Of a stretch of DNA of 64,000 bases, positions 1 to 61,700 are shown in pieces; the stretch's first letter is position 1, and every line of letters starts with the position of its first letter. The notes under the pieces are model-generated. The model worked only from the letters and a program-made list of their open reading frames with translations, did no database searches and had not been told where the DNA came from. Source of the DNA: Sipunculus nudus (lineage: Eukaryota > Annelida > Sipuncula > Golfingiida > Sipunculidae); the NCBI GenBank assembly GCA_026874595.1, contig CM049306.1, forward strand, positions 23,359,019-23,423,018, in the 5' to 3' direction. The position numbers and the translations under genes are program-made.

Positions 1-200
1 GTCGCAAAGACCCAGTTTTCGGCTTGGTAGGAGATCTTGGGGACATCTAACATTATGCTGAATTTTGGATTCCTAGGTCTTACGGTTTCAAAACGTGCCA
101 CATCTACGGACGGACGGACGGACGGACGGACAGACGGACGGACGACGGACAATGGACCACGACTATAGCTCAGATGACTTATAGTCAGCTGAGCTAAAAA
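1..200 (-). repeat. H1-family repeat, head end (partial)
   Basis: Reverse complement of the heads at 14902, 29120, 33915 and 58364. The terminal hairpin is at 167-195 (arms AGCTCAG and CTGAGCT extended by TGAC/GTCA), preceded here by a CGGA repeat (GTCC on the other strand). The body continues past the left edge. It lies in the terminal NMNAT intron. Confidence 0.9.
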
Positions 201-875: not shown

Positions 876-11966
<11,091 letters not shown>

Positions 11967-14599: not shown

Positions 14600-17500
14600 G
14601 TAAATAGTATTGAGGCATCCAGGTGTATAAAGTGTCTTGCTTGCTTTTATACTAATTTTTTTGTTGTTGTGTGTGCAAGTGTGTTTTTAATCATTTTATT
14701 ACATTTGTATAGGGAAAATTTTATGTAGGTTATCACTCATCAGTATTTGATCATATATATATTTCTGCACTGGTATTGCTGAATTTGAGTGCACATAGTA
14801 TATATATTATTATAATTTATGTGAATTATTTAATATGCTCACACAGTCAAACAATTTTACGAGAAGCTAAGGGAACACTGAAGTAATCATTATCAATTTT
14901 TAGCTCAGCTGACTATAAGTCATCTGAGCTATAGTCGTGGTCCATTGTCCGTTGTCCGTCCGTCTGTCCGTCCGTCCGTCCGTTCGTAGATGTGGCACGT
15001 TTTGAAACCGTAAGACCTAGGAATCCAAAATTCAGCATAATGTTAGAGATCCTCAAGATCTCCTACCAAGCCGAAAACTGGGTCTTTGCGACTTCGTTCC
15101 TTTGAGAAATTAAGGAAAAACCTCAATTTTTTATTAAAATCCTATTTTCACACTTCAGGACTGCCTAATATCAAAACTACTCATCTGTTTTTCCTCATAT
15201 TTACAATAAATATTCCTCTATATAGTTCCTATGTACATGCCAGAAATTAAGACTGAAAAGTATAAATTCTTTAAGTTATGGGCCCAAACATAATGGACTT
15301 TGTAAAAAATCAGGAAAAATAATAACTCACTTAACATGAAAAATTTTGAAACTAGAGTCTATTTTCTCAAGTATATAACTATGTTTAATTAAGATTCAAT
15401 TGTTTACCCAAAATTAGATCTGAATTTTGTAAATTTTTTAAATTATTAGCATAAAAAAAAATCAGTACCTTAAATTTTGCCCAACTTTGACCATGGCACG
15501 TTTTTTTCCTGTAAGCACCATTGATTTAATTTTCACAGCATGTAAACATAAATATTTAGTTTGTCTAAATCTGAAATTTGAAAATAAAAGCTTGAAAATT
15601 AAGCTAGTTATTGATTTTTTTCTGTAGTCACTTGCTTTGATTACAGATGCAGGGTCCCACTCCAGGTCACTGGAAGTCAGCTATGCCAGGGTTTCTGATT
15701 TGTTACAGTCACTGGGGGAGATCCCCTGCTGTGACAGGTGTACAGTTATTCTCATATCACCACCCCAATCACCCCCCCCCCCCCCCCCCGCAAACCCAAC
15801 CCACCAAGTGTTATGCAGTAATTGTTATTGTTTTCACTGTATCTCCTTAATTGTAATGCTGTTTTCACCCCGATATGCAAAAACTTTCCTTGAAAAAATA
15901 ATTCAAGGTGTAATCCAGAAGATGCAATGTTGTGTAATGTAGCATTTTTAAAGAAATCAGTTTTCTTTTAAATGATTTTAACAAATATAAATGAACCCAT
16001 CAGTATGCTTAAATTATTATAAAATATGAAGCACATTATGGAAAAATAAAGACACAATTAAAAATTGTGAAATCTAAATCAAGTATTATTTTTAGATACT
16101 GTTTTGCAGATTTAAAAGATATATTTTTGTGGTAAAAAATAGATAAACATTTGTATGCATGATGTGGTGTTATCTGACAAGATTGAGATTTATGATGATA
16201 CAATTGAATATTATGAATCAACTTTTATATTCAGATATATATGTTAAATTGGAAATGTATAGAAATATAAACTTAAATTAGAAAATAATTGATGTGATAA
16301 AAAAATCAGGATTTAATACAAACATGTGTTCATTATTTTCCTGCCTCATCAGAATTTGAGATCAGGCTTTTTTTGCCCTGTTTTATGTTGTTAATTAGCT
16401 ATATTTCAACTGTATACATTTCATTAAAAAAATACATATATATTTAATAATATATATTATACAAAAAAATAGATTCAATTGAACAAATGTGTAAACAACT
16501 GAAATGTCAACAGTTAATCAAAAAACCAATTAATGATCATGGTTATAGTACAGATCATTTGTTCACAAACTGCTCACATGCTTTAGTTTCAACATTAGGA
16601 AACACATGGTCAGGTCACAAAATATTTTTTGCAACAATTTCTTGCTCATCAATACAAACCAATCATATAAACAAACCATGGCCTTTATTACCTCTTCCTC
16701 TTACACTTTATCTCCATTAGATATTATTTTAGATTTTTACCTTCAAGGTTAACGTCAGCTGAGCACAGTGACCCATAGGTCCCTTGTTATTATATATCAA
16801 ACTTTTGCCATTGATGCTACAGACATTTATTTTGTAATGTTCTAAAGATGCAAATGAGCAGTACAGTATTAATGACTATGTACATGTGTATGGATCACTT
16901 TATACACAAAGGTTTTATTTTTAAGATTGTTTCACTTTTCACAAATATCACAAATTTGAAACACTTGTGAACAAAGGCCAACCACAGTATCAAAACAATT
17001 GTAATCCACAACTGTTTTGTTTACTGATGTATATCTGGTTGATTGGAAAAGTCTGTGGTAAAAATTCAATTTCTGTTGTTTGTTTTAGCGCAAAGATACA
17101 TTACTTGAAGAATTCAAAATGCGAGGCAAGGCCAGCAAGTTTGTTGACAGACGACTTGGAGAGGGGGATGCTGACATGTCAGTTGAAGATAAAATGTTGC
17201 AGAGATTTGCTGTGGAGAGACAGGTCAGTAATCACTTGGTAGCTTGACCAGACACAGTTTATAAGCCTGGGATTGTTTGGCTGTAGGTATTTGATAAGAC
17301 TTAAGAAAGCAGTAAAAAGGTACCTTATTAAGGTGGCTGAAAGATTCAGAACTCCTTGCTTATCTCAAATTTTTAAAATGACAAATCAAGAAACTTTAAT
17401 TTGTGATGTAATAGAACCATTTAGGTAGAAAGACAGCATGAGGCTGGTTGATGCCCACACAGTTACGCATGGTGGCTCTTATGTATGGGGGGAGCATTGC

Positions 17501-26500: not shown

Positions 26501-29500
26501 TAAAGAGGCTGTTAGTGTAGTCTTTTTTCTCTGCCGGGTTCCGCACCGCCCGATGAAGTGCCTATCACAGATCAGCAGCTTTGCCTGGAAGACGAGCCAT
26601 TGTAGTGTTGTAATTTGTTATCTCCCTTGCTCAGACTGTACGTTCTACAGGGAGGTCTCAGGAGGCACAATGGCCCTTCACCTCATCTGTTGCCATGGCA
26701 ACTAAATCTTTGATGATGGCCAGGATTCACATCCAACAAGGACGTCATGTTTCTACATCACTTCACCTTACCTGTGAGATCTGGTATCACAGTGGTACCT
26801 CTGATTATAACAACAAGGTGATATTTAATTTCAAACAGTCATTCCAGTTATTGTAATAAGTCCTTTCAAAATCTTATTATGTTTAAAACTTTGAAACAAA
26901 TTTCCTGAATTCAACTATACTTAATTTCCCATACATTATTTATTTCTCTGTTAGGTGCAATGATTTTTTCCCCTTTTTCATTAATCTGTCAGAAAGTGTT
27001 AAATTTGTGTTTGTTATTATGAAGAAATCTATCTTAGAGAAACAGAAATTAAACCAGTGAGATGCTTCCCACCACTATAAATTTAATTTATAAACATGAA
27101 GAAAGCAAATCTGCAAACAAATCTATCTAAAAATGGGATCAGCAGTGGAGCCTGTCTGACAGACCACCTGCTTGATAAGACCACCTGTCTGTTAAGACTG
27201 GTCTTGACTGAACCAACAGCATTCACATTGGTTATAACTGACCTCTCTAATAAGACCACCTGTTAATTGAGACCACTTTTGGCCAGTCCCTTGAGTGATC
27301 TCATAACACAGGTGTCACTGTATTGAGCTTATGATTTATACAAATATATTCTGCAACTGTTTCATTACAAGTCAGACTTTTATCATTTTGCCTAGATAGC
27401 CTAAAAGTTATTCTAGGATAAGCTTACACATAATGGTTGTTGCTCCCATTTTCACTTAACCTTACATCTGCCCTGCATTTGATCATTATAAACTGCACAG
27501 TAGTGTTGCTTGTAAGGCTTATTTCACTTGCTGGACAAACTTTATGGGCGCCTCCTGTTTTTCCGGAGATTAATTGGGAATTAGCGTAGGAATGCCAGTC
27601 AAGCTTACCAGCCACTACTACTGCTGTCAAATATTTTCAGTAAATTTGGCCAGGGCCAATGGGATAATTGCCACAATAATGGAAATTCCTCCCAGCCTGC
27701 TGTTGCTGTTACAGGTACATGTTCCCCTGCGGTGGCATTCTTTTGGCAGTAAATATAATGTTGGTGTACAGGGAATGTCCACTGATAGACAGGTCATGTT
27801 TTATTAAAGGGGTCTGTAGTCTTGATCCAAGTAAGTTATTATTTGTTAACCTCTCTGGTTTCAAAACTAAAATCAGACATCAGCGTTGGTCTCATTTGGG
27901 GTTTAGTGTATTTCTATGTTGTTGCTACTTTTTTCTTTGAGATTTCCCTGAATGTAACATTTGGTGTATTTTATTCTTCTTTAAATAGAGTTCTGGAGCT
28001 CAACTGAAGGCTTAACATTTCAGTTCAATTAAATAATGCTCAAGGGAAATTCAGCAGAAAAGATCATGTATCACTGTAATTGAAAAAAAATCAGCTTTCA
28101 AATGGGATAAATTATTATGCTTTTAGATTCAAGCTGGTTATTTAATATACCAAAAGAACAATATTTATGAGAACTGGATGTTATTTAATTGACTTAATTT
28201 AGTTAACATAGATATATCATGTCTTCATCAATTCCTACAGTATATTTTGATACTATGAGATAATAATCACAGGACACTCAGCAGAGAATAATACATATAA
28301 TTGTACTTAGGGGGAAAATATTACATATGGTAAAGTGTGATTAATGTATCCTATTATTGCAAATAAAGTGGTAATATTATATATGGAGAAAAACTTCATA
28401 AAAAAAGGAGTTATTACATGAGCTTTATTAAGGTTTTATTGTGGTATAGAATTTTTTATCGGTGTGTATGGTATCTGACGATATGATTTAGTATAGGGCG
28501 AATCAATGAATCTTAATTACCTTCTGAGCCAGCGTGAGTAAACAGACTGTAATGGTGGTGGCAATATTTGTCACATTGTATGAAGTGTTATTGAAGCCCA
28601 GTGAGATGTGGGCAGCCCTTGTCTGTCCAGGCATCGCCAGTGCTGGCAAGCTGAATATGATCAATTATGACATTACAGCAACAGAGCCACAATTATCTTG
28701 TCAATTATAATTTGGTAATGGTATACTTGTTTCATCTTTGATGCCAAACCTGTTTGTCATTTTGATCACACCAACTAGGCAGTAACTTTTTTTCAAAGCG
28801 TTTGTAAGCGGATGTTTTACCACAGTGCAGCATTGATTGTAGACCAGGATATACTAGTTATGCTGTTTTATATAAGCAATATCTAAAGCCTAACATACCG
28901 TCTTTTACATGCCACATATTCCCTGGAAATTAACCCAGCATGCTTCATTTAGTTTTGGGAATATCAAAAGCAAGGTTTTGTAGAAAAATAACATCAGTTG
29001 TTTACTCATGTTTCAATCATCATCGTTTTGTATTATGTAAGGCTTCACATGATTTTCCATGAGGCCATATGTAACAACATATTGCAGTCCCTCCCGCTTC
29101 ACCTGTCCACCTGTTTTTTAGCTCAGCTGACTATAAGTCATCTGAGCTATAGTCGTGGTCCATTGTCCGTCGTCTGTCCGTCCGTCCGTCCGTCTGTCCG
29201 TAGATGTGGCACGTTTTGAAACCATAAGACCTAGGAATCAAAAATTCAGCATAATGTTAGATGTCCCCAAGATCTCCTACCAAGCGGAAAACTGGGTCTT
29301 TGCGACTTCGTTCCTTTGAGAAATTAAGGAAAAACCTCAATTTTTTATTAAAATCCTATTTTCACACTTCAGGACTGCCTAATATCAAAACCACTCATCT
29401 GTTTTTCCTCATATTTACCATAAATATTCTTCTATATAGTTCCTATGTACATGCTAGAAATTAAGTCTGTTAAGTATAAATTCCTTAAGTTATGGGCCCA

Positions 29501-32500
29501 AACATTTTCACTTAACATGAAAAATTTTGAAACTAGAGTCTATTTTCCCAAGTAGTTAACTATGTTTAATTAAGATTCAATTGTTTACTCAAAATTACAT
29601 CTGAATTTTGTAAATTATTTAAGTAATTAGCATAAAAATAAAATCAGTACCTTAAATTTTGCCCAACTTTGACCATGGCACGTTTTTTTTTCCTGTAAGT
29701 ACCATTAATTTAATTTTCACAGCATGTAAACATAAATATTTAATTTGTTTAAATCTGAAATTTAGAAGTAAAAGCTTGAAAATTAAGCTAGTTATTGATT
29801 TTTTTCTTGAGGCTCTATTGTAGTCATTTGCTTTGATTACAGATAACAGATGCAGGGTCCCACTCCAGGTCACTGGAAGTCAGCTATGCCAGAGTTTCTG
29901 ATTTGTTACAGTCACTGGGGGAGATCCCCTGCTGTGACAGGTGTACAGTTATTCTCATATCACCACCCCAATCACCCCCCCCCCCCCCCCCCCCCGGGCA
30001 AACCCAACCCACCAAGTGTTATGCAGTATTGTTATTGTTTCGACTGTATCTCCTTAATTGTAATGCTGTTTCCACTCTGATATGCAAAAACTTTCCTTGA
30101 AAAAGTAATTCAAGGTGTAATCCAGAAGATGCAATGTTGTGTAATGTAGCATTTTTAAAGAAATCATTTTTCTTTTAAATGATTTTAGCGATCATAATGG
30201 AACCCATCAGTATACTTAAATTATGATAAAATATGAAGCACATTATGGATAAATAAAGACACAATTAAAAATTGTGAAATCTAAATCAAGTATTTTTTTT
30301 AGATATTTATTGTTTTGCAGATTTAAAAGATATATTTTTGTGGTAAAAAATAAACATTTGTATGCATGATGTGGTGTTATCTGACAAGATTGAGATTTAT
30401 GATGATGCAATTGAGAATTATGAATCAACTTTTATATTCAGAGATATATGTTATATTGAAAATGTATAGAAATATAAACTTAAATTTTAAAAAAAATTGA
30501 TGTGATAAAAAAATGAGGATTTATTACAAACATTTGTTCATTATTTTTATGCATCAGCAGAATTTGAGATCAGGCTTTGTTTGCCATGTTTTATGTTGTT
30601 AATTAGTTATATTTCAACTGTATACATTTCATAAAAAAAACATATATTTAATAATATATATTATACAAAAAAAGGATTTGATTGAACAAATGTGTAAACT
30701 ACTGAAATGTCAATAGTTAATCGAAAAGCCAACTAATGATCATCATGGTAATTGTACAGATCATTTGTTCACAAACTGCACACATGCTTCAGTTTCAACA
30801 TTAGGAAACACATGGTCAGGTCACAAAATATTATTTGCAACAATTTTTTGCTCATAAATACAAACCAATCATATAAACCAACCATGGCCTTTATTACCTC
30901 TTCCTCTTACACTTATCTCCATTTGAAATTATTTTAGATTTTTACCTTCAAGGTTAACCTCAGCTGAGCACAGTGACCCATAGGTCCTTTGTTTTGCAGT
31001 TGTATTTGTTAATGCAAATACACCCAGAATACTTGTCCCCAAGGAGAGAAAGAGGAAAGTGCATAATTAACTGTTGAGAAAATAAAGAATTGATTTAATT
31101 TTCCTGTAATTAATTTAAAACAGAATATGTGATACAAGTTCACACTTTAATAGCAACATCTTTTAACAATCCACATGAAAGGACATGGCAGGGAACAGTG
31201 ATGATGATATGATAGACATAACATACAAAGTCACATATAAGAATAACCAATGACCATTGACCTAAAGCTACCGACCCTTTTAAAGACTGGTACTTACACT
31301 CGCCTTTTGTGTGTGCTTCATTGTTACATCACACATATGACATTATTTTTTCCCCTTAAATAATAAACAATGGTCACCCACCAGGGATGCCATGAATCTC
31401 ACGTATATCAAACAAGTCAACCAAGCTGTAAAGTGGAAATAGTCAAATCATAAGCAAGAGTGATACTAGAAATAATGTATTTTCTCCTTTCTGTCATTGG
31501 TGCAAATTTTGTTTTGCCAATTATTCTAAAGAAAAAAACTAGAAATCTGCATTGTAAGGAATGCAAGCCTTTATTCAGACTTTATGCAAATAAACTGTCA
31601 ACTATCAGAAAGCTTAAAATAGAAGCATGCCTCTGTGTGTCAAGTTAGATGAGGGGAAACAAAAATTCCTCGATTGTTGTGTCTTAAAATCTAGATTACA
31701 TTCCTGGTTACTTATTAAACTCACAGATTCTCTTGAATGCACAGGAAAAACTTGTCTCATTTTGGGCGGTGAGGAACATGTTGGGGTAAAGTTATCTGTT
31801 ATTTGCTCTACAGATCAGCAAAGACTCGTGGAGTTCATGAAATGGCATTTGTGAGTTGTGAGAGATTGTTAAACATATAAAAGTGCATTTGTTCAGGGGA
31901 TATTTAAATAATAATTAAAATAAAATGGGGTGGGGGGCTGCTTGTTTGGGTTTCTCTTGGAATTTCTATCCTGTGACTAGCGGTAGATGGCACCCTGACT
32001 TCAATCAAAATATGTTGGCTTGTTTATATTAGCAGTAGGTGTATTAGCTACAGACCTGTAAAGCAAAGGTTTTAAAACTGTGTTTTATTTGTTTTCCATT
32101 CCTGTGAATGGAGGCTGGAGAAGGGGGCACTTGTTTAACCAGAAAAATCTGGTTAAAAATCAATACTGAGAGCACCCAGGGCACTCATTATATAGAATAC
32201 AGTAGCCAAAGCCATTGTGGCATAATACATGAATAAGATAATATATTTTGATGAATGCAAGAGGACTGATACTCATATGGATAGGTCTGGCAAGAAATAT
32301 ATCATCATTTGTAACTCTGCCTAGAACTGACATGATTATTGATGGCTCAGACAAGAAATGACAGTCAATTTTTACATTTCTTCTCATTACAACCACTACT
32401 GACATCAAATAATTTATCATCCAACCTGGGTAGATAATGATAAATTGGTCAGTATTGACATTACACCCTCTCCCCCCTTCTCCCCTTAATAGCCATCCCA

Positions 32501-35500
32501 AATCATCACGAAGATACTCTGATGTTCATGAAGTACAGATCACTGCAGGTGATTGTTTATGCCTATGATTCATTTTGATAATTTTATGAATGTATTTAGT
32601 GCTCTTTTTTTTCTGAAGTCCAATTGTGGCAAACATCCATGGAAAGAAGTATTTTGAATATCTGTATTGATGTCCTGCAGTTGAAGGAAACAGTAAATCA
32701 ATAGTTATTTAATCAACAGCAACAAGCAAGCACTGATAAGAAGGAAAAACAATCAGCCAACCCAGGAAACCCCTTTCCTGTCCCAAAAAGACGTTGATTA
32801 AAGTGTCCCAAACAGCACTGGTGACCTGCAGGCGGTTTTTTATGCCACCTATCTGCACTAACATGATCCAGGCCAGTCTATGGCCAGGCGAGATCTGATA
32901 TTCCATTTATTGCAGAAACCTTTCCATATAGGTATGATCTGCAAATAATTGCCAGGCTTATTATTAGACCGGGTGACTTTTAGAGAACTGTACATCTTTA
33001 ACACAGTTTGTGATGCCCAGTGGTAAAGGACTGTAAGCCTCAGATGGTGCCATGAATAAAGGATGTCATAATGCAGTTAATAAAATGGATAAGCTAGACA
33101 CGTCTCCCCCGAGGTAAAAAAATCATACACCTCAATGGCTGCATCAGCCCTGAGGCTGCAGCATCATATGCACTGTTTTGAGTGTGGAAAGAGAGGATGG
33201 GTTAGATTTTGTGAATAAGTAATTTTTATGTGATATCCTAGTGTTCCTTGAAATGATAAAATATTGTTTCTGATCTCAGTGAAGATGATTTAAAAACTAA
33301 AATGTTTTGGTTTCTTCAGAAATGTATCATGGATGTTTTGTTGGACATTCTTCATACTTTTTTGGGTAAAACAGGATCATTGGTTACTTCAGATTTCATG
33401 TTCTTTAATATTGTTCACTTTTGGAAGCTGGACATTATAAAGCTTTTTGTAGTTGAACAGAAATGCTGATATTCCAAACAGCTGGTCCTGGTAACCTTTC
33501 ATGGGGCAATTCTAAAATTACCTTTTAGATGCAACACCAGCTAGCTTATAAACATGTCCAGGTGGCTTATTAAAGTGTATTTAAAATGTGTTTTGCTAGT
33601 TCTAACATGGCTTTGAACCTTTTGACACTAAAGTACTTATATAATGATCAAATATTCGAGATATAAAATCATAATGAAAACCATTGTTTTTTGCAGGGGG
33701 GAATTCACTGCACAATAATTTTTTAATGAATATGATTTAAAAAATCTTAAAATGTTTTACATTATAATATCTTAGACTTAGACTTAGTTAATTTGAATTT
33801 TCTTCCTCTTGTTGATATATTTTATGTAACTCATCCATTGAGTTATGGAATGAACTCTATAGCAGGTATGTAAATGAGGTTCCTGTCAAATGCGCAGAGA
33901 TAGCTGTAATTTTTAGCTCAGCTGACTATAAGTCATCTGAGCTATAGTCATGGTCCTTTGTCCATCGTCCGTCCGTCTGGCCGGCCGGCCGTTAACAGGG
34001 CACGTTTTAAAACCGTTGGACCTGCGAATCCAAAATTCTGCACACCATCAGATGTCCCCAACATCTCCTACCATACCGAAAATTGGGTCATTAGGACTTC
34101 GTTCCTTCGAGATATTAAGGAAAAACCTCCGTTTTCCATAAAAAAGCCATTGTTACACTACAAGGCTGCCTAATATCAAAACCACTGATCTGTTTTTGAT
34201 CATATTTAGTATTCATATTTTTCCATACATTTTCTATGCACATACCAAAATTTAGGTCAGTTTTGGGTATTATTTTGAAGTTATTGGCCCAAATATAATG
34301 CAATTTTTTAAAAATCAGGAAATATATTTGCTCACATAACATGAGAATTGCTGAAGCTGGAGACTTTTTTTCAGGAATATAACTTTATTTAATCAAGATT
34401 CAATTGTTTACCCAAAATTAGATCTGAATTTTGCAAAATGTTTAAGTTATTTGCATAAATAAAAAATCAATACCTTAAATTTTGTCCAACATTGGCAATG
34501 GCACGTTTTTTCCCCTGTAAGCACTGTTGATTTAATTTTCACAGCATATATACATAAGGATTTAATCTTTTAAAGTCTTAAATTTCAAAGTAATTGATTG
34601 AAAAGAGTAGCTTTTATTCAAGTTTTCTTACACCATGTCAAGTGTTGTTTACATCTAGCCCATCTAGCAGTACAGCCTTCACTTGCATTATGTAACCCAC
34701 TCCAGGCAGCCTGCCTTGGCTCAGCTTGGCCACTAATAGCAGGCTCCCCCTCTGCCCTGCACTCCCCCCCCCCCCCCAGATGGTGCATTAACTTGATGAA
34801 TGTTATAATTTTCTGTATTTTATTTTATTCTTGGCTGTGCTACATTTTAGATTTTGTATTGTACCACCAGGGCTACAATGATTAAAGTGCACATTTAATT
34901 GTGTCCACAAAGAGATGTATTGCTATGAAAGTGTGGATGTTCATCAGATAAATAATGCTTTACTTCAGAAGAGTAAAACTTCACCAGGTGTGAAATTGAC
35001 TTTTAATTCCAGTAATAAATTATAGCTGAGATAGTAATTAGCATATTGATATTGGTTGTCCCTCATTCAACCAACAGTGGGTATACTTTATTTGAAAAGA
35101 TGTTTTTTTTTATGCCCCTGCCACAAAGTGGCCGGGGCATTTAGTTTTACCCATGTCCGTCCTTCCGAAATTAAACAGTTATACGGACTTTTTTTCGCAA
35201 TGCCTGCAGATATTGGCCTGATTTTTGGTGTGTGGGCAGATAATGACCAGTTACAGATCGAGTTCCTGTTTTGTCCTGGCTGACCTACTTTTGACCGTTT
35301 TACGGCTCCTTAACTTAGAAAATTTCATGAAAAATAGAAATTTTCATGACAAATACACATGTACGGACTTTTTATTCGCAGTGCCTGCAGATATTGGCCT
35401 GATTTTTGGTGTGTAGGCAGATAATGACCAGTTACAGATTGAGTTCCCGTTTTGTCCTGGTTGACCTACTTTTGACGGTTTTACGGCTCCTTAACTGAGA

Positions 35501-38500
35501 AAATTTCATGAAAAATAGAAATTTTCATGACAAATACATATGTACGGACTTTTTTTTCGCAGTGCCTGCAGATATTGGCCTGATTTTTGGTGTGTAGGCA
35601 GATAATGACCAGTTACAGATCGAGTTCGCGTTTCGTCCTAGTTGACCTAATTTTGACCGTTTTACGGCTCCTTAACTTAGAAAATTTCATGAAAAATATT
35701 AATTTTCATGACAAATACTTATGTACGGACTTTTTTTCGCAATGCCTGCAGATATTGGCCTGATTTTTGGTGTGTGTGCAGATAATGATCAGTTACAGAT
35801 CGAGTTCGCGTTTTGTCCCGGTTGACCTATTTTTGACCGTTTTACAGCTCCTTAACTTAGAAAATTTCACGAAAAATATTAATTTTGATGACAAATACAT
35901 ATGTACGGACTTTTTTTGCAGTGCCTGCAGATATTGGCCTGATTTTTGGTGTGTGGGCAGATAATGACCAGTTACAGATTGAGTTCGCATTTTGTCCCAG
36001 TTGAATTACTTTTAACCGTTTTATGGCTCCTTAACTTAGAAAATTTCATGAAAAATATAAATTTTCATGACAAATACACATGTACGGACTTTTTTTTGCA
36101 ATACCTGCAGATATTGGCCTGATTTTTGGTGTGTGGGCAGATAATGACCAGTTACAGATCAAGTTCATGTTTTGTCCCAGTTTACCTACTTTTGACGGTT
36201 TGACGGTGCTCTAACATAGAAAATTTCATAAAAAAGTGCACATGTACGGACTTTTTTTTCGCAATGCCTGCAGATACGGGCCTGATTTTTTATGTGTGGG
36301 CAGATAATGACAGTTACAGATCGAGTTCACGTTTCATCCTGGTTGACCTACTTTTGATTGTTTTACGGCTCCTAAATATAGAAAATTTCATGAAAGACAG
36401 AAATTTTTCTGGAAAATGCACATGTATGGACTTTTTTTCACAGTCCCTGCAGATACTGGCATGATTTTTGGTGTGTTGCTTGATAATGACATGTAACAGA
36501 TCGAGTTTGCATTTTGCCCTTGTTGACCTACGTTTGACCATATGACTCCTGAACTTAAAATTTTTTTCAAAATTTAACAAATGTTTCTAATTTGCCCCAG
36601 GCGGGGGCATTTGTGTCGTTCCGACACATCTAGTTTTATCAAATTTACTGAATCTTTTATTTTATTTCGGTGAATAAAATTAAGCATGTACTGAAAACTC
36701 CAATGTGCAAAACTTTTTAATAGGGATTCAAGGAATAATCTTGTAGAAGCCATGTTGTGGCATTATTTTCTTTTAAATTCAGTTTAAACATTTGATTTAA
36801 AAATAATAAAATATATGTGTATGCATAATATGACCCAATATGAGGTACACTCTGGTCATTTGCTTTGATTACAGATTACAGATGCAGGGTCCCACTCCAG
36901 GTCACTGGAAGTCAGCTATACCAAGGTTTCTGATTTGTTACAGTCACTGGGGGAGATCCCCTGCTGTGACAGGTGTACAGTTGTTCTCATATCACCACCC
37001 CAATCACCCCCCCCCCCCCAAACCCAACCCACCAAATGTTATGCAGTAATTGTTATTGTTTTCACTGTATCTTCTTAATTGTAATGCGGTTTCCACTCCA
37101 ATATGCAAAAACTTTCCTTGAAAAAGTAATTCAAGGTGTAATCCAGAAGATGCAATGTTGTGTAATGTAGCATGTTTAAAGAAATCAATTTTCTTTTAAA
37201 TGATTTTAACAAATATAATTGAACCCATCAGTATGCTTTAATTTATCAAATATGAAGTACATTATGGATAAATAAAGACACAATTAAAAATTGTGAAATC
37301 TAAATCAAGTATTATTTTTAGATATTTATTGTTTTGCAGATTTGAAAGATATATTTTTGTGGTAAAAAAAAAATAAACATTTGTATGCATGATGTGGTGT
37401 TATCTGACAAGATTGAGATTTATGATGATGCAATTGAGAATTATGAATCAACTTTTATATTCAGATATATATATGTTATATTGGAAATGTATAGAAATAT
37501 AAACTTAAATTAAAAAAAAACTGAAGTGATAAAAAAATGAGGATTTAATACAAACATTTGTTCATTATTTCTCTGCCTCAGCAGAATTTGAGATCAGGCT
37601 TGTTTGCCCTGTTTTATGTTGTTAATTAGTTATATTTCAATAAATAAATTCAGTTGTACAAATGTATAAACTACTGAAATGTTAACAGTTAATTAAAAAG
37701 CCAACTAATGATCAACGTAATAGTACAGATCAATTTGTTCACAAACTGCTCACATGCTTCAGTTTCAGCATTAGGCAACACATGGTCAGGTCACAAAATA
37801 TTATTTGCAACAATTTTTGCTCATCAATACAAACCAATCATATAAACCAACCATGGCCTTTATTACCTCTTCCTCTTACACTTTATCTCCATTTGATGTT
37901 ATTTTAGATTTTTACCTTCAAGGTCAACATCAGCTGAGCACAGGGACACATGGGTCCCTTGTTATTGTATCCACCGAAACAAAGTTTTGTGGATACTATG
38001 TTTTTGACCGGGTTCCGCCGCTGCTGCCGCGATCATTTCTGGAATAGAACTCTGAGACCACGGGGCAGATTTTTCCGAAACTTTACACCATGATCAGGTC
38101 ACATGTGAAATGGGGCCAAAATATTTTTGCGTTGACCTCTGACCTTTCCTCTCGCCAGTGCATCCATCTGTGTGTCTGTTTTAACACATTAACCCACATA
38201 TCTTCGGACTCCTTTGACCAATCAGGCTAATAATTTTACACAAATGTAGCCTGTGGATAGCTTTATAACATACATTAAAAAATGTTGGCACCACCTGTAA
38301 CCATTCTTACACAGCATCCATCTGTTCATCTGCCTAAGGATAAAATCACTCATATCTCTGCAGTAAATGGACATATCCACCGGAAAGTTTATATGTGTAT
38401 TCATTTGGATAGCTTTATTGATTTTATTACAGGTGGTGCCACCTACATTCACGTTCAAGCTGCAGACATAAAGCCTTATATCTCAGGACTAGATTGCCGT

Positions 38501-41500
38501 ATCCTCCTGAAATTTTGCATGTGTATAGATCTCACATAGCTCTTTGTCATACACAAAACTGGTGGCACCATTTACAACCATTTTTGCACAGCATCCATCT
38601 GTTTGTCTGCCGTGGGATAAAATTACTCATATCTTGGCAGTGATTTGACTTATCTGCCTAAAATTTTGCATGTATACACATCTTGGATAGCTTTCTCGAT
38701 TTTGTGGCAGTTGATGCCACCTACATTCACTTTTAGGCTGCAGACATCCATGCTTATATGTAACACACCTTACTCTATTTCCCCTTGCCACCCAATCCAT
38801 GCCTCACTTCACCCGTCCCACTCTGATTTTCACTTGTCGACTACATGTATTATAGTTTTCAATGTTTGCACACTGGGACCATATGCATCCAGCAAAATGT
38901 TTCCATGGAGGGATTTTGTAAACAGTCAGCTGCACTCAAGAGCTTGCATATTGGAGGAAAACAGAACACTTGATGTTCCAGACTAGACCACAGATGGATA
39001 CATGTTGCTTGTATAATATAAATAACAGGCATATTTAATCACATAGCTGTGTGGGGATACAGCAGGGGGATTCATCTCACACCAGGACTCAGCTGAAAAA
39101 TGTTAATCACATCAACACATTGTGGGTACGACCCAAAGAAGAAAAAAAATGACTGTTTACAAAACCATCTTGAGTTCTTTATTACCCAGAAGGTTAGCAA
39201 TACAACAACCAGGAAGACTAAACTGACTCAGTGTGAACCATGCAGAGCTAATATGACCCGCGGGAGTAGTAAATAGACTTTTTACTGCCTTGATAAGATA
39301 TAAGAGAGGACTACTCAGCTGTGAAGAGATGATTACTCACAAATTATTCATCTTTTGAAAGTGTAAACAGGGATGAATGTTTTCCACCTTAATTCCACTT
39401 TTTTCACAAATACCAGAGAGAGGTGGTTTGAGCTCATATTTTGTGAAATATACAGGAAAATAGTACTTGATTTGTTTTGCCATTAATGGAAATTTTCTCA
39501 AAAACAGTCTTAATTGCCACGGAATATCAAAAGAAATGTTTTATTACTTTGCTAAAATCTTGTTCCTTCAAAATTGAAAGTTCAACATTTATCAACTGAA
39601 TGATAGTCTCCCTGATTCTTAGGCCAAGTTTGATCTCAAAATGTTAAAATATTAGAAGAAATGAATATGTCGATTCACTTTGTGCTTTGAAAGAACAACT
39701 GTGTATAAAGCATCCTATATGGGATGCAAACCTTGCAGGGAAGCTAGTGATATGGAATTTTAATTAACCCTGTGTTATTCCTGTGAACTTTTTAACTGAA
39801 TATTTTGAAAAAAGCCCTGGACATCATGGTATTGCTGTACTTGACTATAAACATAATAAACAACAACCATGTCACCCCCCCCCCCCTCCGTCCCCGCCCC
39901 CCCCCCCCTACTCCCATAATGTATTTTGGTTTATAGACACCTTTCAGGGAAATGGCAAGTGGCATGACGTCATTGTCCCAAGATGTATGTTGGTTTACAG
40001 ACACCTTTCAGGGAAACGGCACGTGGCGTGACGTCATTGTCATCTGTGACATAACTGATCATGCTCGACAGATGGCCATATGGTCACATGCAGCAAGTGC
40101 AAGTGGTTAAATGTGCTATAAAAACAAATACTCATTCTGGGGTTATTTACGCTTGGATTTACACCAAAATTGAACTTCATCAACGCTTTCACAACATCAG
40201 CCTATATGATACATTTCAGTAACATCCATTAAACTGTCTCCAGATAACATCTTGACATACACACATACACACACAGAATCGAGTGAACAGATTAACCCAC
40301 ATTCTGCACAGGGTTGAATATGTATGGGTACCTGAAAACTAAAACCATATATGTTTTATCACATGGTGCACCAGGTTTATTTATATAAATTCAGATAAAT
40401 CATGTACATCAGCATGTAATATGATGTAGATGATCTCTGTTCTTATAAGTAACAAATATTTTCCATTTCTACATTATTGTCACTTTCTAGAAAAAAATTT
40501 TCCACCTGATTACCAGTAGGCTTTCTGGGCTGAAGGTTATGAGTCAAGGAAAGGCATGATGCAGGATCTATTAATTAACACTTGGAAGATTTTTTGGGAA
40601 CATAAATTTAAAGTGCCAGTGAACTCATATAAATAATTAGCAATTTCAAAGATAAAAGGTGCCAACAATCACAGTTCTTTGTACTAATGTGCAATATTCA
40701 TGTAACAGAGGATCTTGGTTTCTGAAGTCATGCTAATAACATATCACTAGTACACAAGCTTTGATCATATCTGACATTTGTCTGAAAAGACTGGTTGCCC
40801 CAGCAGAGAAGGGGATCAATTAAAGTGTGAGTTCAGAAACTAACCGCAGGTATTCTTGAGTACATTGTATATTTCCATTCCACTAGAACTTGTGTATGGT
40901 CTGTAAATTAGAATCCTGTTATCAAGTTTATTGAAGGAAATGAGTAAATCTAGTACCACTGTATATAGAAATATGGAAAAGTATAGAAAAGAAGTACTTC
41001 CATGTGTGCACATTTTTTGGTGCTATATACTAAATGGGAAAATCTAGTACCACTGTATATAGAAATATGGAGAAGTATAGATAAGAAGTACTTCCATATA
41101 CTAAATGGGAAAATATAGTACCACTGTATATAGAAATATGGAAATGTATAGAAAAGAAGTACTTCCATGTGTGCACATTTTTTGGTGCTATATACTAAAT
41201 GGGAAAATCTAGTACCACTGTATATAGAAATATGGAAAAGTATAGAAAAGAAGTACTTCCATGTTTGCAGAATTATTTAAAAAAAATTTAATCAACAAAT
41301 GATAGTCATCAACATAAAAACTTTTTAAAATGACTAAATGTCCTGAATACATAGCTTATCTAGTTCGATATAGGATTCAATATGATACCTTATGCTATCA
41401 ATCAAAAGAATGAGGTCACAGGGACACAGTTATTGATTTTCCCTATTGGTTCTTGTTTCTTTTATCCTGATGGTGTCATTGCCAGTGATACTTTTAAGTT

Positions 41501-47900: not shown

Positions 47901-50900
47901 GGAAACGTCACAAAAAGGATTCCAAATAACACTTGTAAAGGCCACTTGTGTATCTCAAGGGCCAGAGAATAGACAAGGAAGTGAAAGTGTTTTTTTGATG
48001 CACTTCTCATTATGAAGAGTGGCATGGCTCCCACAAGCTGGAAAATCCTTAGGCAAATTCTAACACTTTTGAGACCATGTGTTAACCCATTAACAAAGAT
48101 CTAGTTATATTTATAAATTATACTGATCATGGAAAATGGTAAATGGTTAAAAAAAGATTTGAGGATTACCTGGTGTATAGAGTGGTGAAAGAGGCCATAC
48201 AAAACCCCTTTGAAAGAGAAAACTGGTATCCCTGAAAAATATTGAAGACCTCATTCCTAGATCTTATATTAAAGCCACTCCTCTGATAAAGCCACTTTTA
48301 TTCAGTCCCATTAATGACAATAATACATGAGCTCCACTGTATAAGCATTTACAAGTCAGAATTCATGTCACTCTTAGCTAACTGTAATCTACAGTCCTCA
48401 TGCAGGGCCCTGACCTCTGTGCATTGTCAGCCATTGATTGTGAATTTCATCTCATTTCCTCCAGCATTTCCTCATATTCCTCATCCAATTTGGTAATGAA
48501 TGCCAGCCCCACTGTTTCTGTAATCTGATGGAAGTGTATTGAAAATTGGCATAATATCTGGACACTTGAGACAGCAGCCCACCGGTCAAGTCTTATTGAT
48601 CACCGCTCCAGGATTCATATCCATGTGGGCTCCCTAAGACACGGCTGACCTTGGCTTACTCTCCTAAATCTTTTGTCTGGACATGTATAATGTTGACTCA
48701 GTAAATGATATTGCTTACATTTATCTGCATTTCCTTGTCCTCTTTCTTTATTTCCATGACGATTACTAATCCCTCCATACTTGCTGTTCATATTTGCTGA
48801 TGCCCTATAGTATCAGCCTTTCCGTCTGTCTGTCATGTCTGTCTGTCTGTCTGTCCGACCACATATTTGATAACTCGAGTTTGAATTGACATATAGAATT
48901 CAAACTTGACTTATATATGGCCCACCACTAAAGCAAGAAGCCGATTGATTTTTTTTTGGGCATGAGGTCAAAGGTCAAGGTCACAGGATCCATATCTTTA
49001 AAAAGATTGTGGATACATTTTATGCCAAACTTTTAATCCCAGACCTTCCATCTTGCTCACAGAGCTCACGTCCTAATAAGGGAAGTTCCCTGTGGATTTT
49101 TGGGCCACAAAGTCAAAGCTCATGGTAACAGGAGCCATCTTTCATTCATTTCATTCATTTCCAAATTCATTTCCGGATGATAATTCAAGTTTTATTTAAC
49201 TTATGGATTTCTAACTTGACTTATTCATGACCCGCCACTAAAGTAAAGTTTCAGTATTGGGGTCATGCAGTTAAAGTTCAAGGTCACATGAGCAATCTGT
49301 CTTCAAATTTGTTTCCGGATGATTACTCTAGTTTGAATTATGGATTTCAAACCTGACCTATAAATGGCCTACCACTAATGTGAGAACCCATTTAATTTCT
49401 TTGTCACCAGGTCACAGGTGCACATAATACATGTTATTATATGCATCTGTTGCTTGTGATGCTCCACTCTGACACCTTAATACACAAATATCATTAATTC
49501 AAACCATAACATCTTGGTTCAGATATTTAAATACTGTTTTTGGTCAGTGCCCTCTGTCTCTGTATGTAATCAGGTCCTTCATTTTTCTAACATCACTCAG
49601 CCCACACTGCAAGTCTATTGGCCTTTTGCAGGGCCCTTCCTGCCCTGTCAGTTTATTTATTTATTACATATGTAGAGGAAAGGGTAGAAGATAGTGAAAC
49701 ATTAGAATAATATTGGGCTAAAATACAGGTAAATTGATATCTTGGTAAGCTTTAGGGCACAATAACTGATAGGACAGTCCTATAAAGACACACTGCTTCA
49801 AAGATAGATCATGACACAAAGGCAGTTTTTACATTGGTAATATCAGATATCCCTGAATTGATACATTTACAATTTTTAATCATGCATTGGAAATTGATTT
49901 CAAACAAAATGAGTTAATAACATCCAATCAGTTGTTTGAAAATATATTTATCAGAGAAAGGTTAGATATTTTATATTGACATGGAAGAAAGGTGGCTTGG
50001 ATCTGAGCTGTTGTATACTATATTTGTATCAAATTGTAATAACTGCATAATAACACTGTATCATGTCACAAGTTAAGTATTGCAGTACATATTGTATCAT
50101 GAAATAATGTATCACTACAGCCTCAGTAATCATGTCTCCCCCCCCCCCCCCCCCCCCCCCACCAGGGGAGACGTTGTTTTCAGTGTCGTCTGTAGGATAT
50201 CTTGTGAATGCGATAACTTTTGAAGAGCTGCATATTTTCTGCCAAAATTTTCACACACTAATGGTTCCTACTGAAATCTCAGACAAGTTTGAAACCCAGT
50301 GACCTTGATCTTCATCTTCAAGGTCAAATATGCCGAAATGGAAAATTATTGTGAAACCCATAACTTTTTAAGTATTTTACATTTTGTCCTCAAATTTGGT
50401 ACACTAATTGTTTCTACAATGTCTCGAAGGAGTTCGAAAGCGGGTGACCTTGATTAATATCTTCAAGGTCAAATCAGCTTTATTATAGTTATTGTCTTGT
50501 GAAGGTGATAACTTTTAAAGGGTTGGATATTTTCCTCCCAAATTTGAAACACTGATTGTTCCTACCAAAATCTTGGATGAGTTTGAAACTTGGTGACCTT
50601 GACAGGGTCAGATCTCTCACCATGTCTTGATTGATATAACCTATATGCAATAGGGGGTGGGGGCGGGGGGAAGACATCTGTTTTTGCAAATGCAATAACA
50701 AGCCATTCTAGTTATATAGGTAGATCAGAAGTGATAAATTAGTGGAATGCCTTGTTTTGTAATCAGAATTTATAAATACTCTGTAGTTTCCCCTGAGTAA
50801 GTTTTACTTTATTATTGTGATTTCAGAAACACCATGAGAAGGCGGGACTGTTTAATCTTAATGAGGATGAGGAGCTCACTCACTACGGACAGTCATTGTC

Positions 50901-55703: not shown

Positions 55704-58700
55704 GAAGATGAAGATGAAGAAGATGAGGAAATGGAAGAACAGGATCTGAAAGATGGAGAAGGTATAAAATAAGTGAAGTACACAAGTTTCCATCAATGCA
55801 CAACTGTGAAAAAAAGTCTCTTATAATGCAGGCATCATATAGATAACTAATATTTAACTGGTTGCCCATCTCATCAGAGGTTATAATTGATCTGTGAATG
55901 ACTGGGTTTATAAAGTAAGGACTAAATATCAGCTCACATCTTCAGGTAAACTAGGTTTTAAACCAACACTGATTGATGCCTTAAATAAAGCAATAATACC
56001 AATATTCACATTAGCTATATGCTGATTAATCAATTACAATAATTATTGGTCATTTTCTTTCATAATCAATAAACTTGGTTGCCTATTTATATAATTGATC
56101 ACAAACAATTATGTATGTGTATGCAAAGACGCAATATGATCTAGACAAAAAAAGAAAAAGAAAACTACATTTTGATTAAACTTTGAGCAGCCGATGAGTG
56201 CACAACCTGCCTGATACATTGACCTATCGACACCTCAAGCTTATGTGCTCTATTAGTGCCTGTTTTAAAATCTGTCACCTGTATGCCATTGTACATATAA
56301 ACCAGATGATCATGATGTGTGTGATTACTGTGAAATCATGATTTATCGAGTCTTTATGTGACCTATATTACCACATTTTACAGAATATAGAATCTACTAA
56401 TAATATAACTGATTAGAAATGGATCATTGTTATTTTCTTTCAATCAACCAATAAGATTTTATAACAGATTCCTATCACTAATTCACATGCGTGCATAAAC
56501 AGTGACTTTACATCATTAGAGCAGTCAATAAGACAACAAAGAGGTGGGGGGGGGGGGGGGAATGACTTGTTGTTTATATTGACCCAGGCTTTTGTTTAGT
56601 TCCTGCAGAAGATGATGATGAAGATGATCATTCGGATGCTGAGGAGAGTGATGATGCCATGCAGCATATGTCAGATTTAGAATCAGATTCAGAGGAGGAA
56701 GATGGAGAGGAAACAGAACAGAAAATCACACCTGAAGATTTCAAGGAACAATTAAAGGTATTATTTATATTATTATTAATTTTATGTAGATGTCAAACTA
56801 AAATAATGTATCAACTTCAAATTTCTGTTATCAAATAGACCCCTTATGTTTTATATTAATGATTCATCAGATCTAGATGAAGATGTTAGTTTATTTTACT
56901 TGGACTTGCCCTAAATTTATTTATGTTTTCATAGATTGTTAATTACCTTACTGATTGTTAAATACTGTACTGATTGTTAAATGCCATACTGATTGTTAAA
57001 TGCCATACTGATTGTTAAATATCATACTGATTGTTAAATACTAAAGTGATTGTTAAATACAATAGTGATTGTTAAATACCATACTGATGTTAAATACCAA
57101 ACTGGTTGTTTAATACCACACTGATTGTTAAATACCAACACTCAGAGCTGTAAATTCAAATCAGAACTGGCCTCTAAGGTCCAGAGGTTGAGCAAGGGGC
57201 TCAAAGCTGGGAGATCTTGAGTTCAAATCTCAGCCTAGATTTAAGATACCATTTTTTAAAATTATAAATGTTTCTCTTGTGTGGTGTTTGTTTGTTGTAA
57301 TACATATTTTTAAGGGTAAAAAAATCTCAGCCTAGATTTAAGATACCATTTTTTTAAATTGTATATGTTTCTCTTGTGTGGTGTTTGCTTGTTGTATTAC
57401 AAATTTTTAAGGGTAAAATTTCTTGTCAGGAACGAAGTATCAATTTGCTGAGATGTTACTTATGCTAGGGAAAACTTATTGTTGTTTCATTTGTATAATC
57501 TAGGCAAAGAAAGAAGTCATGGAGGCAGCTAGAAAAGAATTACCATACACATTCAAAGGTGGGATGAATTATTTTTATACGATTAATTTGTAATCAGTCA
57601 GATATATACTTATCAGATAGGAATTACATCATATTCTGAGTGTAACATCACTTTTGATAAAGAGGAGATTAAAAAAAAGTTAATTTAAATGAAAGCATGA
57701 ATATTGGACTTCCATGTCAGCTTCTAGTAAGGAATGAAGAACCCACCTTTTAGGGGATCTATTTTTAAGGACACCTCTCTCTTAAGGACACCTTGGGCAG
57801 TTCATTGATAAGTATATTGAGGTATCTGTGACCTCTCTTATACATGTACCTATTATAGGCAGATCCCAAGTTTATCCAGTGTAAAAAACTTGAAGGTTTT
57901 TTAATGGCCTCATTTAATCAAAGAATGATTCTAAAATTTGAAAAGCATTATTGAACAATTAAAATATGTTAGAAAATGTCTGATCAGAACATTGATTTCT
58001 TGTCTTTACAACATGAGTGATATTTAAAGGATATTCTGTATCTGTTTGTATCTCCCTGAAAACCATATCTCTATCTGTCAGAGATGATATGGAACTATAA
58101 AAGGCTGAAATCATAACTACTATGGAAAAATAAAATAAATAATTAAATAAATATGTAATAAATTAAATAAAATAAATAATTGAAGGCTCCATTGCATTAT
58201 ATATCGGCTTCTGATTAATCATAGACATTCATTGATTACCTTTAAAAAAGTGGGGGAGAAAATCAGCATAACAGTTAACGGGTAGGTTTCGTATTAGCTA
58301 TAAAGGCAGATTTTTTGTATTTATTTATTTAACTTAGCATAACATTAGTATTGCATGTTTTTTAGCTCAGCTGACTATAAGTCATCTGAGCTATAGTCGT
58401 TGTCCTTTGTCCGTCGTCCGTCCTTAACAGGGCACGTTTTGAAACCGTTGGATCTACAAATCCAAAATTCTGCATACCATTAGATGTCCCCAAAATCTCC
58501 TACCATACCCAAAATTGGGTCATTAGGACTTTGTTCCTTTGAGATATTAAGGAAAAACCTCCGTTTTCCTTAAAAAGCCATTGTTACACTTCAAGGCTGC
58601 CTAATATCAAAACCGCTGATCTGTTTTTGATCATATTTAGTATTCATATTCTTCCATACATTTTCTATGCACATACCAAAATTTAGGTCAGTATTGGGTA

Positions 58701-61700
58701 TATGGGCCCAAATATAATGCAATTTTTTAAAAATCAGGAAATATATTTGCTCACTTAACATGAGAATTGCTGAAGCTGGAGACTTTTTTTCAGGAATATA
58801 ACTTTATTTAATCAAGATTCAATTGTTTACCCAAAATTAGATCTCAATTTTTCAAATTTTTTAAGTTATTAGCATTAATAAAAAATCAATACCTTAAATT
58901 TTGTCCAACTTTGGCAATGGCACATTTTTATCCCTGTAAGCACTGTTGATTTAATTTTCACAGCATATATACATAAGGATTTAATCTTTTAAAATCTGAA
59001 ATTTCAAAGTAATTGCTTGAAACACCATGTCAAGTGTTGTTTACATCTAGCCCACCTAGTAGTACAGCCTTCACTTGCATTATGTAACCCACCCCAGGCA
59101 GCTTGCCTTGGCTTAGCTTGGCCACTACTAGCAGGCTTCCCCTCTGCCCTGCACTGCCCCCCCCCAGATGGTGCATTAACTAGATGAATGTTATTAATTT
59201 CCTATTTTATTTTATTCTTGGCTATGCTACATTTTAGATTTTGTATTGTACCACCAGGGTTACAATGATTAAAGTGCACATTTAATTGTTTCCACAAAGT
59301 GGTGTATTGCTATGAAAGTGTTGATGTTCATCAGCTAAGTAATGCTTTACTTCAGAAGAGTAAAACTTTGAACCAGATGTGAAATTGACTATTAATTCTG
59401 TGTGGACAGATAATGACCAGTTACAGATTGAGTTTGCGTTTCGTCCCGGTTGACCTACTTTTGACTGTTTTACGGCTCCTAAACTTTGAAAATTTCATGA
59501 AAAATAGAAATTTTCATGACAAATACACATGTACGGACTTTCTTTCGCAATGCCTGCAGATTTTGGCCTGATTTTTGGTGTGTTGGCAGATAATGACCAG
59601 TTACTGATCGAGTTCGCATTTCGCCCGGTTGACCTACTTTTTACTATTTTACGGCTCCTAAACTCCTAAATAGAATTCATGACAAATACACATGTACGGA
59701 CTTTTTTTCGCAATGCCTGCAGATATTGGCCTGACTTTTGGTGTGTAGGTAGATAATGACCAGATATAGATCGAGTTTGTGTTTCGTCCCAGTTGACCTA
59801 CTTTGGACCATTTAACGGCTCCTTAACTTAGAAAATTTCATGAAAAATTGATATTTTCATGACAAATACACATGTACGGACTTTTTTTCGCAATGCCTGC
59901 AGATATTGGCCTGATTTTTGGTGTGTGGACAGATAATGACCAGTTACAGATCAAGTTCATGTTTTGTCACAGTTGACCTAATTTTGATTGTTTTACGGCT
60001 CCTAAACATAGAAAATTGTATGAAAAATATTAATTTTCATGACAAATGTACATGTACAGCCGTTTTTAGCCCTCAGCTCATAGGCTGATGGGCTATTGTC
60101 GTCACCCAAGCTGTCCGTCTATCCATCCATCGTGCCGTCCGTCTGTCCGTCCGTCTGTCTGTCCATCTGACGTCCCTCCGTCCGCGTCTGTTAACTTTTA
60201 CCTTGTGAGCAGGATTTCTCTAAAAGGATTCACGGTTGAAATTTTATTTCATCAGTGAAGATGTATATCGATAAAATCTCAGTCAAGTTCGAAGATGGGT
60301 GACCTTGACCCATTTTTCTACATTTAAGAGCTGATTATAGAAAAATACTCAGAAGCTTATATCTCGGGAACCATTGTGTGGATTTTCACAAAACTTACTA
60401 TGATCATTGGGACTGATGGTCTGTCTGAAGAACTTAATTTCTTCAGTGCTAATGCATGATATTTACAAAATTTTGGACAAGTTCAAAGATGAGTGGTCTT
60501 GACCTACTTTTCAAGGTCACAGAGCTTAGTATAGAAAAAACTTAGGAGCTTATGTCTCAGGAAGCATTTGGTGGATTGTTATGAAACATGGTACATACCT
60601 CTCCAATTTAAATTTATAACTGATTATCAGCTTTTGCTAATATTCTAGTTTTGCAATGCAGTGCTTACAGATACTAGACTAATGTTTGGTCTGTTGGCGC
60701 ATAATGACCACTTACAGATCAAGTTCGCGTTTCGTCCAAGTTGACTTATTTTTGACCATATGACAGATCCTGAACATAGAAAATTTCATGAAAGACAGAA
60801 ATTTTTATGAAAATGCACGTATGGACTTTTTTTCACAACGCCTGCAGATACTGGTCTGATTTTCGGTGGGTTGCTTGTTAATGACCCGTTGTAGATCGAG
60901 TTTGCATTTTGCCCTTGTTGACCTACTTTTGACCATATGACACCTCCTGAACTTAAAAATTTTTTTACAAAATTTAACAAATGTTTCTAATTTGCCTCAG
61001 GCGGGGGCATTCGTGTCGTTCTGACACATCTAGTTTTATCATATATAACAGCTGAGCACCGTGACCCATTGGTCCCTTGTTTGTTTCATATGTTGTAGCC
61101 CCTGAGAGCTATGAAGAGTTGGTCGGGACATTGTCAGGTCACTCTGTGGAAAATCAGGAGCGTATAGTGGAGAGGATCAGGAAGTGTACGCATCCAAGTC
61201 TGGCAGAGGGCAACAAAGACAAACTACAGGTGACAATGATCATTAGAGCTGTAATAATTCACTGGTTCACTGACACATGATAATACACAGTCAGATATTG
61301 TATCAGTATCGTCAGATGTCCCTATGTCTGTATGATTATGATATATATTACTTCAGGCGATAATGATCATTAGGGCTGTAATAATTCACTGGTTCACTGA
61401 TACATGATGGTACACAGTCAGATATTGTATCAGTATCATCAGATGTCCCTGTGTCTGTATGATTATGATATATATTACTTCAGGTGACAATGATCATTAG
61501 GGCTGTAATAATTCACTGGTTCACTGATACATGATGATACACAGTCAGATATTGTATCAGTATCGTCAGATGTCCCTATGTCTGTATGATTATGATATAT
61601 ATTACTTCAGGTGACAATGATCATTAGGACTGTATCGATTCACTGGTGCATCGAATAATCATGATACAAAGTCAGATATTGTATCTGTATCATCAGATGT

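Follow-up and report, generated by a model that had tools for sequence, protein, structure and literature searches.

The window analyzed here, a stretch of 64,000 nucleotides of the Sipunculus nudus genome (assembly GCA_026874595.1, contig CM049306.1, positions 23,359,019 to 23,423,018 of the forward strand), contains repeated elements of the families H1 to H4, each of which starts with a DNA hairpin, referred to here as the head. These elements very probably represent HINEs, i.e., non-autonomous rolling-circle relatives of Helentrons. Hairpins at one end of the H1 to H5 repeats and of a GCATCC repeat were described in a first-pass annotation of the window, and the comparison of aligned copies established that the H1, H2, H3, and H4 heads are the 5' ends of repeated elements, located at element boundaries and not inside longer unrelated repeats.

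The central H1 element (33915..37963, plus strand, 3' limit approximate) extends from its head to a 3' end terminating in CTTGTT, and the aligned H1 copies starting at 14902, 29120, and 33915 reach this boundary in common. Its head (33915..33943) is composed of the arm AGCTCAG-C-TGAC and the inverted repeat (IR) GTCA-T-CTGAGCT, leaving one C.T mismatch, and is followed by a GTCC-type tract on the same strand (33951..33991, limits approximate). TTTTT directly precedes this head, as it does in every one of the five H1 copies of the window. At the 3' end (37930..37963), a subterminal inverted repeat (subTIR), TCAGCTGAGC, is followed by four bases, the palindrome AGGGAC..GTCCCT, and CTTGTT.

Nested within this H1 element, an H3 element was found on the plus strand (35112..36633), comprising a tandem core in which a unit of 180 bp is repeated approximately 7.6 times. 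Its head (35112..35140) consists of 7 bp, a T.C mismatch, 5 bp, and a loop of three bases, and its 3' end (36601..36633) of the subTIR GCGGGGGCAT, the palindrome GTGTCGttcCGACAC (GTGTCG..CGACAC), and ATCTAG. Three H1 copies (L029–L031) were read at the matching site without H3. The empty site is GATGTTTTTATTTTATCAAA, and the window features GATG, nine T, H3, and then TTTTATCAAA at this position. Since filled and empty sites differ at the join in letters of the T/A run only, H3 was inserted in a T/A run without a longer duplication, the exact join being ambiguous within the run. The right-hand H3/H1 junction, CTAG-TTTTATCA, is common to the window (36634), the H1 copy at 58364, and locus L002 (~3008–3050), and H1 and H3 may therefore have moved as one unit. 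The 5' part of an H4 element (37967..38759, plus strand; head at 37967–37996) begins where H1 ends, and no 3' end was found for this copy. The H1 3' end and the H4 head are about three bases apart (ATT, 37963–37967); the T-rich edge of one element may have served as the insertion site of the other.

Element anatomy and abundance in the genome

The elements follow a common plan, which corresponds to the one published for HINEs (PMC7492417, PMC2374699, and PMC4067079): the hairpin head, formed by a 5' subTIR and a local IR complementary to it, is in most cases followed by a GTCC/GTCY tract, and then by a tandem core, a 3' subTIR, and a 3' palindrome, with insertion in T-rich sequence. The 5' subTIR with adjoining IR is present in seven families (H1, H2, H3, H4, H6, H9, and H10), and all seven feature the 3' subTIR followed by a palindrome, as read from a single copy each for H2 and H10. 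H6 was obtained via a pattern search and H9 and H10 mostly via a second pattern, H10 resting on one copy; all three follow the same plan as H1 to H4. The GTCC/GTCY tract was found behind the heads of H1, H2, H3, H6, H9, and H10. Concerning the 3' ends, H2 carries GGCTGAGGGCT, the palindrome CAGC..GCTG, and CTAG (one copy), and H4 carries GGCGGATAC, GTAGTCG..CGACTAC, and CTAG. Two classes of 3' ends can be distinguished, one terminating in CTAG (H2, H3, H4, and H10) and one in CTTGTT (H1, H9, and H6 in part). Moreover, H1 and H2 both begin with TTTTTAGC and share GCTAT(A/T)GTCGT behind the stem. In view of these stretches and the two 3'-end classes, the earlier statement that the primary sequences of the repeats do not align is only partly correct. 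A further candidate, H11 (two copies), was left out of the family counts, as it featured no consistent 3' end, one head folding with defects and the other without.

Within the genome searched (1.43 Gb), exact matches to the H1 stem carrying T at the defect site numbered 26,286, compared to none for the reversed control pattern. TTTT directly precedes 21,676 of these 26,286 heads (82%), and H3 lies in a T/A run; insertion in T-rich or TT sites is seen both in the H1 flanks and at the H3 empty sites, the latter showing no target duplication beyond the T/A run. H4 is preceded by short A/T stretches (AATT, TATT, and ATTT), not by a long T-run. The H1 stem with a base other than T at the defect site was present in 947 rows; among 100 matches listed, all from contig C1, 41 A, 25 C, and 34 G were counted by eye, the G rows representing 17 loci listed on both strands. 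The H4 pattern provided 3,801 first-look candidates, 40 of which were scored. The match counts for the H9 (623) and H6 (1,096) patterns are inflated because T-runs match in several registers.

Further copies are distributed over the window. H1 copies including the 3' end are located at 14902..16788 and 29120..30993 (both plus strand), and a nested composite was found at 58364..61081 (plus strand), where an H1 copy with an H1-type 3' end at 61048 contains H3 core repeats, which in turn are broken by H2 (head at 60068..60094, plus strand). On the minus strand, an H2 element (2310..3296; head at 3270–3296; 3' end GGCTGAGGGCTTTTGTCAGCTTCTGCTGATATTCTAG) and the 5' part of an H1 element truncated by the window edge (1..195; head at 167–195) were identified. 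The first-pass annotation had placed all hairpin-bearing repeats between 33915 and 37996, which is correct for H1, H3, and H4; both H2 heads, H5 (50134–50172), and the GCATCC repeat (hairpins at 39710 and 63238) lie outside. H5 and the GCATCC repeat also lack the HINE features. H5 has a C-run loop, an ordinary fold (z −1.40), and no T-run before it. The GCATCC repeat (39707–40297 and 63235–63629, the two copies being about 70–76% identical) starts with a hairpin featuring a defect-free stem of 6–7 bp, and is not preceded by a T-run; its printed sequence contains no GTCC tract, and no 3' subTIR was recognized in its window copies. On this evidence, neither repeat is HINE-like. Other tandem arrays of the window comprise a 31-bp unit repeated 17 times (62005–62538), a 127-bp unit repeated 3.8 times (61223–61704), and a 19-bp unit repeated 10.8 times (56934–57137).

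Autonomous Helentrons with H1-type ends

A genome search with the Pfam profile Helitron_like_N resulted in at least 143 matches, with 150 of 195 candidates scored. Four of the loci (a1, a2, b1, and b2) contain open frames of 2,235 to 2,420 aa (stop to stop), which end in a helicase and an endonuclease-like part. In the Pfam scans, which took in parts of the b1, b2, and a2 frames, Rep and PIF1 exceeded the cut-off in all three, b1 for example reaching 8.7e-28 for Helitron_like_N and 5.7e-23 for PIF1; the endonuclease was above the cut-off in b2 (5.1e-8) and a2 (3.6e-11) only. b2 is 93% identical to b1 across 6 kb.

H1 ends were found on three group-b copies, namely b1 (C17), d1 (C10), and d2 (C5). 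All three start with TTTTT-AGCTCAGCTGAC...GTCA(T/A)CTGAGCT behind three different flanks, and their 3' boundary, determined by copy alignment, reads GTCAGCTGAGC-ATCA-TGACCCATGGGTCA-CTTGTT with small variants. Compared to H1, the autonomous heads feature the loop GAA instead of ATA, and b1 also has A for T at the defect; the stem sequence is otherwise identical among the H1 copies and the autonomous elements, this being the one base that differs, in one copy. The span from head to end is approximately 15–16 kb by coordinates. An identical subTIR of at least 11 bp, the published family rule (PMC4067079), was found at both ends in the comparison of the autonomous element with the 14902 copy, for H1 only. 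The 35-bp autonomous 3' end occurs at 4,426 genome places with at most one mismatch (control: 0), compared to the at least 143 matches of the Rep domain. Five of 100 listed places were fetched with approximately 3 kb of sequence, and in two of them an H1-type head was located upstream, at distances of approximately 0.9 and 2.8 kb, which cannot hold the 2,342-aa Helentron frame; the ~2.8-kb copy has the window-type head TATAGTCGTGGTCC.

An autonomous Rep/helicase element with the same ends, as sought by the first-pass annotation, is thus available for H1. Judged from the terminal sequences, H1 is linked to Rep–PIF1–endonuclease Helentrons sharing its 5' head and 3' end, which represents a new finding, and these Helentrons probably move the H1 family.

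Several observations were made on the autonomous elements themselves. In b1, d1, and d2 (L021–L023; L008, L019, and L020), a second H1 head lies approximately 0.7–1.1 kb inside the first one, and an H4 copy is also present. One autonomous copy (L017, ~4228–4306, minus strand) ends in two consecutive H1-type 3' ends. N-terminally, group b matches Herpes_teg_N (PF04843; 4.4e-13 and 1.6e-12; L008 and L009), and group a matches an OTU protease (3e-9; L006); according to these profile matches, the two are different cysteine-protease-like domains on related Helentron proteins. Element ends were not found for the group a Helentrons (a1, a2, and a3), with 25 kb read around a1. For group c (C3 and C5), no boundary could be set, since the 6 kb of downstream sequence that were read showed 99.9% identity between the copies.

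Hairpin structure, mid-stem defect, and competing explanations

Folded with DNA parameters against dinucleotide shuffles, the H1–H4 window copies achieved better folds than the shuffled sequences (z −2.96 to −5.34). Between families, a score of 67 was obtained for the match of the 5' arms with their own IRs in the seven families (permutation mean 32.6) and of 69 for the match with their own 3' subTIRs (permutation mean 35.6), and in either case the true pairing is the only one among 5,040 to reach the score. The arm–IR result is circular, since the families were picked for having a hairpin, and the arm–3' subTIR result is partly so, because the H2 and H10 ends were sought via the complement of the arm; for H1, H3, H4, H6, and H9, the position of the 3' ends followed from copy alignments or from element boundaries, read along with the arm. 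Within families, compensatory double changes were not above shuffles in H6 and H9 by three measures, with P values of 0.21 and 0.32 for H9 forms 1 and 2 (18 and 22 heads) and of 0.14 and 0.61 for H6 forms A and B (23 and 21 heads). Only distinct heads were included; rows of other length, most of the rows whose start was damaged, and repeated T-run registers were left out. The power of this approach is low because inserted copies are presumably inactive, transitions making up most of their decay. The agreement of arm, IR, and 3' subTIR is supported between families only, and the proposal that structure, and not sequence, is selected at this end is not supported: inside H1 and its autonomous partner, the stem is fixed, and the missing excess of compensatory changes is the outcome that the first-pass annotation itself had named as refuting.

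A defect in the middle of the stem, i.e., an unpaired nucleotide or a 1×1 mismatch between the outer and the inner stem, was found in nine out of ten head forms folded at minimum energy (H1 with two loops, H2, H3, H4, H6 A, H6 B, H9 form 2, and H10; H6 A, H6 B, and H9 form 2 were folded as consensus letters). The remaining form, H9 form 1, has a plain stem of 10 bp. The window H4 copy features a 2×1 defect, and the other H2 of the window a single bulge. The kind of defect depends on the subfamily: H1 has C.T or C.A, H6 has G.A or a bulged A, and H9 has a bulge, which may lie on either side. According to duplex calculations, the 3' subTIR pairs across the defect site of the head in 11 out of 13 sets. 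This distant pairing is uninterrupted for H1, H2 (11/11), H3 (with a G.T wobble), and H9 L039 and L041, and includes a mismatch or bulge elsewhere for H6 L024 and L025, H9 L042, and H10. In H4, the distant duplex contains its own bulge immediately next to the defect site, and H6 L028 pairs only just past the site. The exceptions are H6 L026, where distant pairing stops at the site, and H6 L027, which retains the mismatch. These values do not uniformly favor a switch that relies solely on stronger distant pairing, the distant duplex exceeding the IR pairing in strength in eight out of 13 sets.

Tentatively, the Helentron ends might represent a three-segment code, in which the 5' arm pairs imperfectly in cis, leaving an unpaired mid-stem nucleotide that is retained while its kind changes from one subfamily to another, and can pair with the 3' subTIR through the same site; the HUH Rep protein would recognize the correct strand and end by the defect, and once the strand is released, the two ends could come together via the distant match. 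Families could therefore change their sequence only if all three segments changed together. When the window was scanned blindly for the three-segment pattern, the matches listed beyond H1, H2, and H3 were mostly due to chance. Among the titles in the literature searched, none dealt with the mid-stem defect of Helentron heads.

The strongest competing explanation, to which we assign a somewhat less than even chance, regards the defect as functionless: the subTIRs and the 3' palindrome alone would be important, the IR being no more than a partial subTIR copy subject to drift. It is in accordance with the partial and/or interrupted IR of DINE-1 (PMC2374699), the head copies without covariation, and the existence of defect-free heads, namely 17 perfect-stem H1 loci among 83 listed and H9 form 1. 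However, drift would have to account for a defect in nine of ten folded forms, for its near fixation in H1 (26,286 heads with T versus 947 rows with another base), and for subfamilies of H1, H6, and H9 that differ in the kind of defect.

Overall, the heads are very probably 5' termini of HINEs, and a Helentron protein would act on their ends. This protein would bind the head as a single-strand hairpin, reading the family-specific stem bases together with the unpaired mid-stem base, and the same protein would nick at the T-run. The 3' palindrome would halt unwinding, and the 3' subTIR, able to pair with the 5' arm across this defect, would help to bring the two ends into contact. Several results, including the above-mentioned lack of compensatory changes, weigh against this interpretation. 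Rep, helicase, and endonuclease above the cut-offs in one frame were found in b2 and a2, whose element ends were not found, and the endonuclease score of b1 is below the Pfam cut-off (20.6 versus 24.5). A long Rep frame is present in b1 only (2,342 aa), those of d1 and d2 comprising 676 and 1,124 aa, and three of the five fetched 3' ends had no head inside 3 kb. Over 60 bp, the window H1 and the autonomous end are 69–74% identical and thus belong to different subfamilies at the published threshold of 80% over this length, which weakens the subfamily assignment only. H2, H3, H4, H6, H9, and H10 remained without an autonomous partner, none having been sought by ends except in the fetched loci. 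Regarding the pairing step, the distant duplex is equal to the IR pairing within 0.1 in two and weaker in three of the 13 sets, and most oyster subTIR pairs are reported to contain one mismatch (PMC7492417).

Complementary sequence at either end is also what would be expected if the heads were the usual terminal inverted repeats found in MITE-like cut-and-paste transposons, with an incidental local hairpin. This explanation is very improbable, since the 3' copy lies internally with a palindrome behind it, the H3 empty sites show no target duplication beyond the T/A run, and matching ends were found on a Rep/helicase element. Still less probable is a role of the heads as RNA hairpins, e.g., in transcript processing or reverse transcription: they are able to fold single-stranded, but their ends match a rolling-circle DNA element, and no evidence of an RNA step turned up, no RNA-level test having been made.

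Comparison with known systems

The principle of the same design with different sequence has already been published for oyster and Drosophila. Cg_HINE of Crassostrea gigas features a 5' subTIR of 11–12 bp, a complementary IR of 7–12 bp, and a GTCY/GTCC/GTCK tract (PMC7492417), and resembles the Sipunculus elements in its subTIR/IR head, GTC tract, satellite-like tandem core, 3' subTIR with palindrome, TT insertion, and occurrence as several families unrelated in sequence. The sections of that paper considered here mention mismatches between the two subTIRs, whereas a head with a defect in mid-stem is not mentioned. DINE-1/HINE elements and Helentrons likewise share a subTIR (13 bp there), a partial or interrupted IR, a GTCY tract, a 3' stem-loop, a TT preference, and, for DINE-1/HINE, an autonomous Rep/helicase/endonuclease partner, whereas the sequences differ (PMC2374699 and PMC4067079). 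In the sections considered, the interruption of the DINE-1 IR is noted without interpretation (PMC2374699), and the words "mismatch" and "bulge" do not appear in the main text of PMC4067079.

Helitron2/FoHeli elements are similar in their asymmetric terminal inverted repeats and, in some cases, hairpins at both ends; however, these fungal elements have no endonuclease domain and use other target sites (PMC5148889). For the mid-stem defect, E. coli REP/TnpA_REP may serve as an analogy in the mode of action, with no membership claimed: this HUH enzyme acts on a single-strand hairpin and needs a mid-stem mismatch for activity (PMC8266576). In contrast to the elements described here, it is bacterial and domesticated, belongs to another protein family, and some of its relatives use perfect palindromes (PMC8266576).

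Unlike Cg_HINE, which its authors could not relate to autonomous Helentrons (PMC7492417), H1 was linked to such an element by its terminal sequences. This ties the H1 family, with its 26,286 or more heads, to candidate autonomous elements, the step left open in the oyster study, and makes it testable how Helentron proteins recognize ends that differ in sequence between families.

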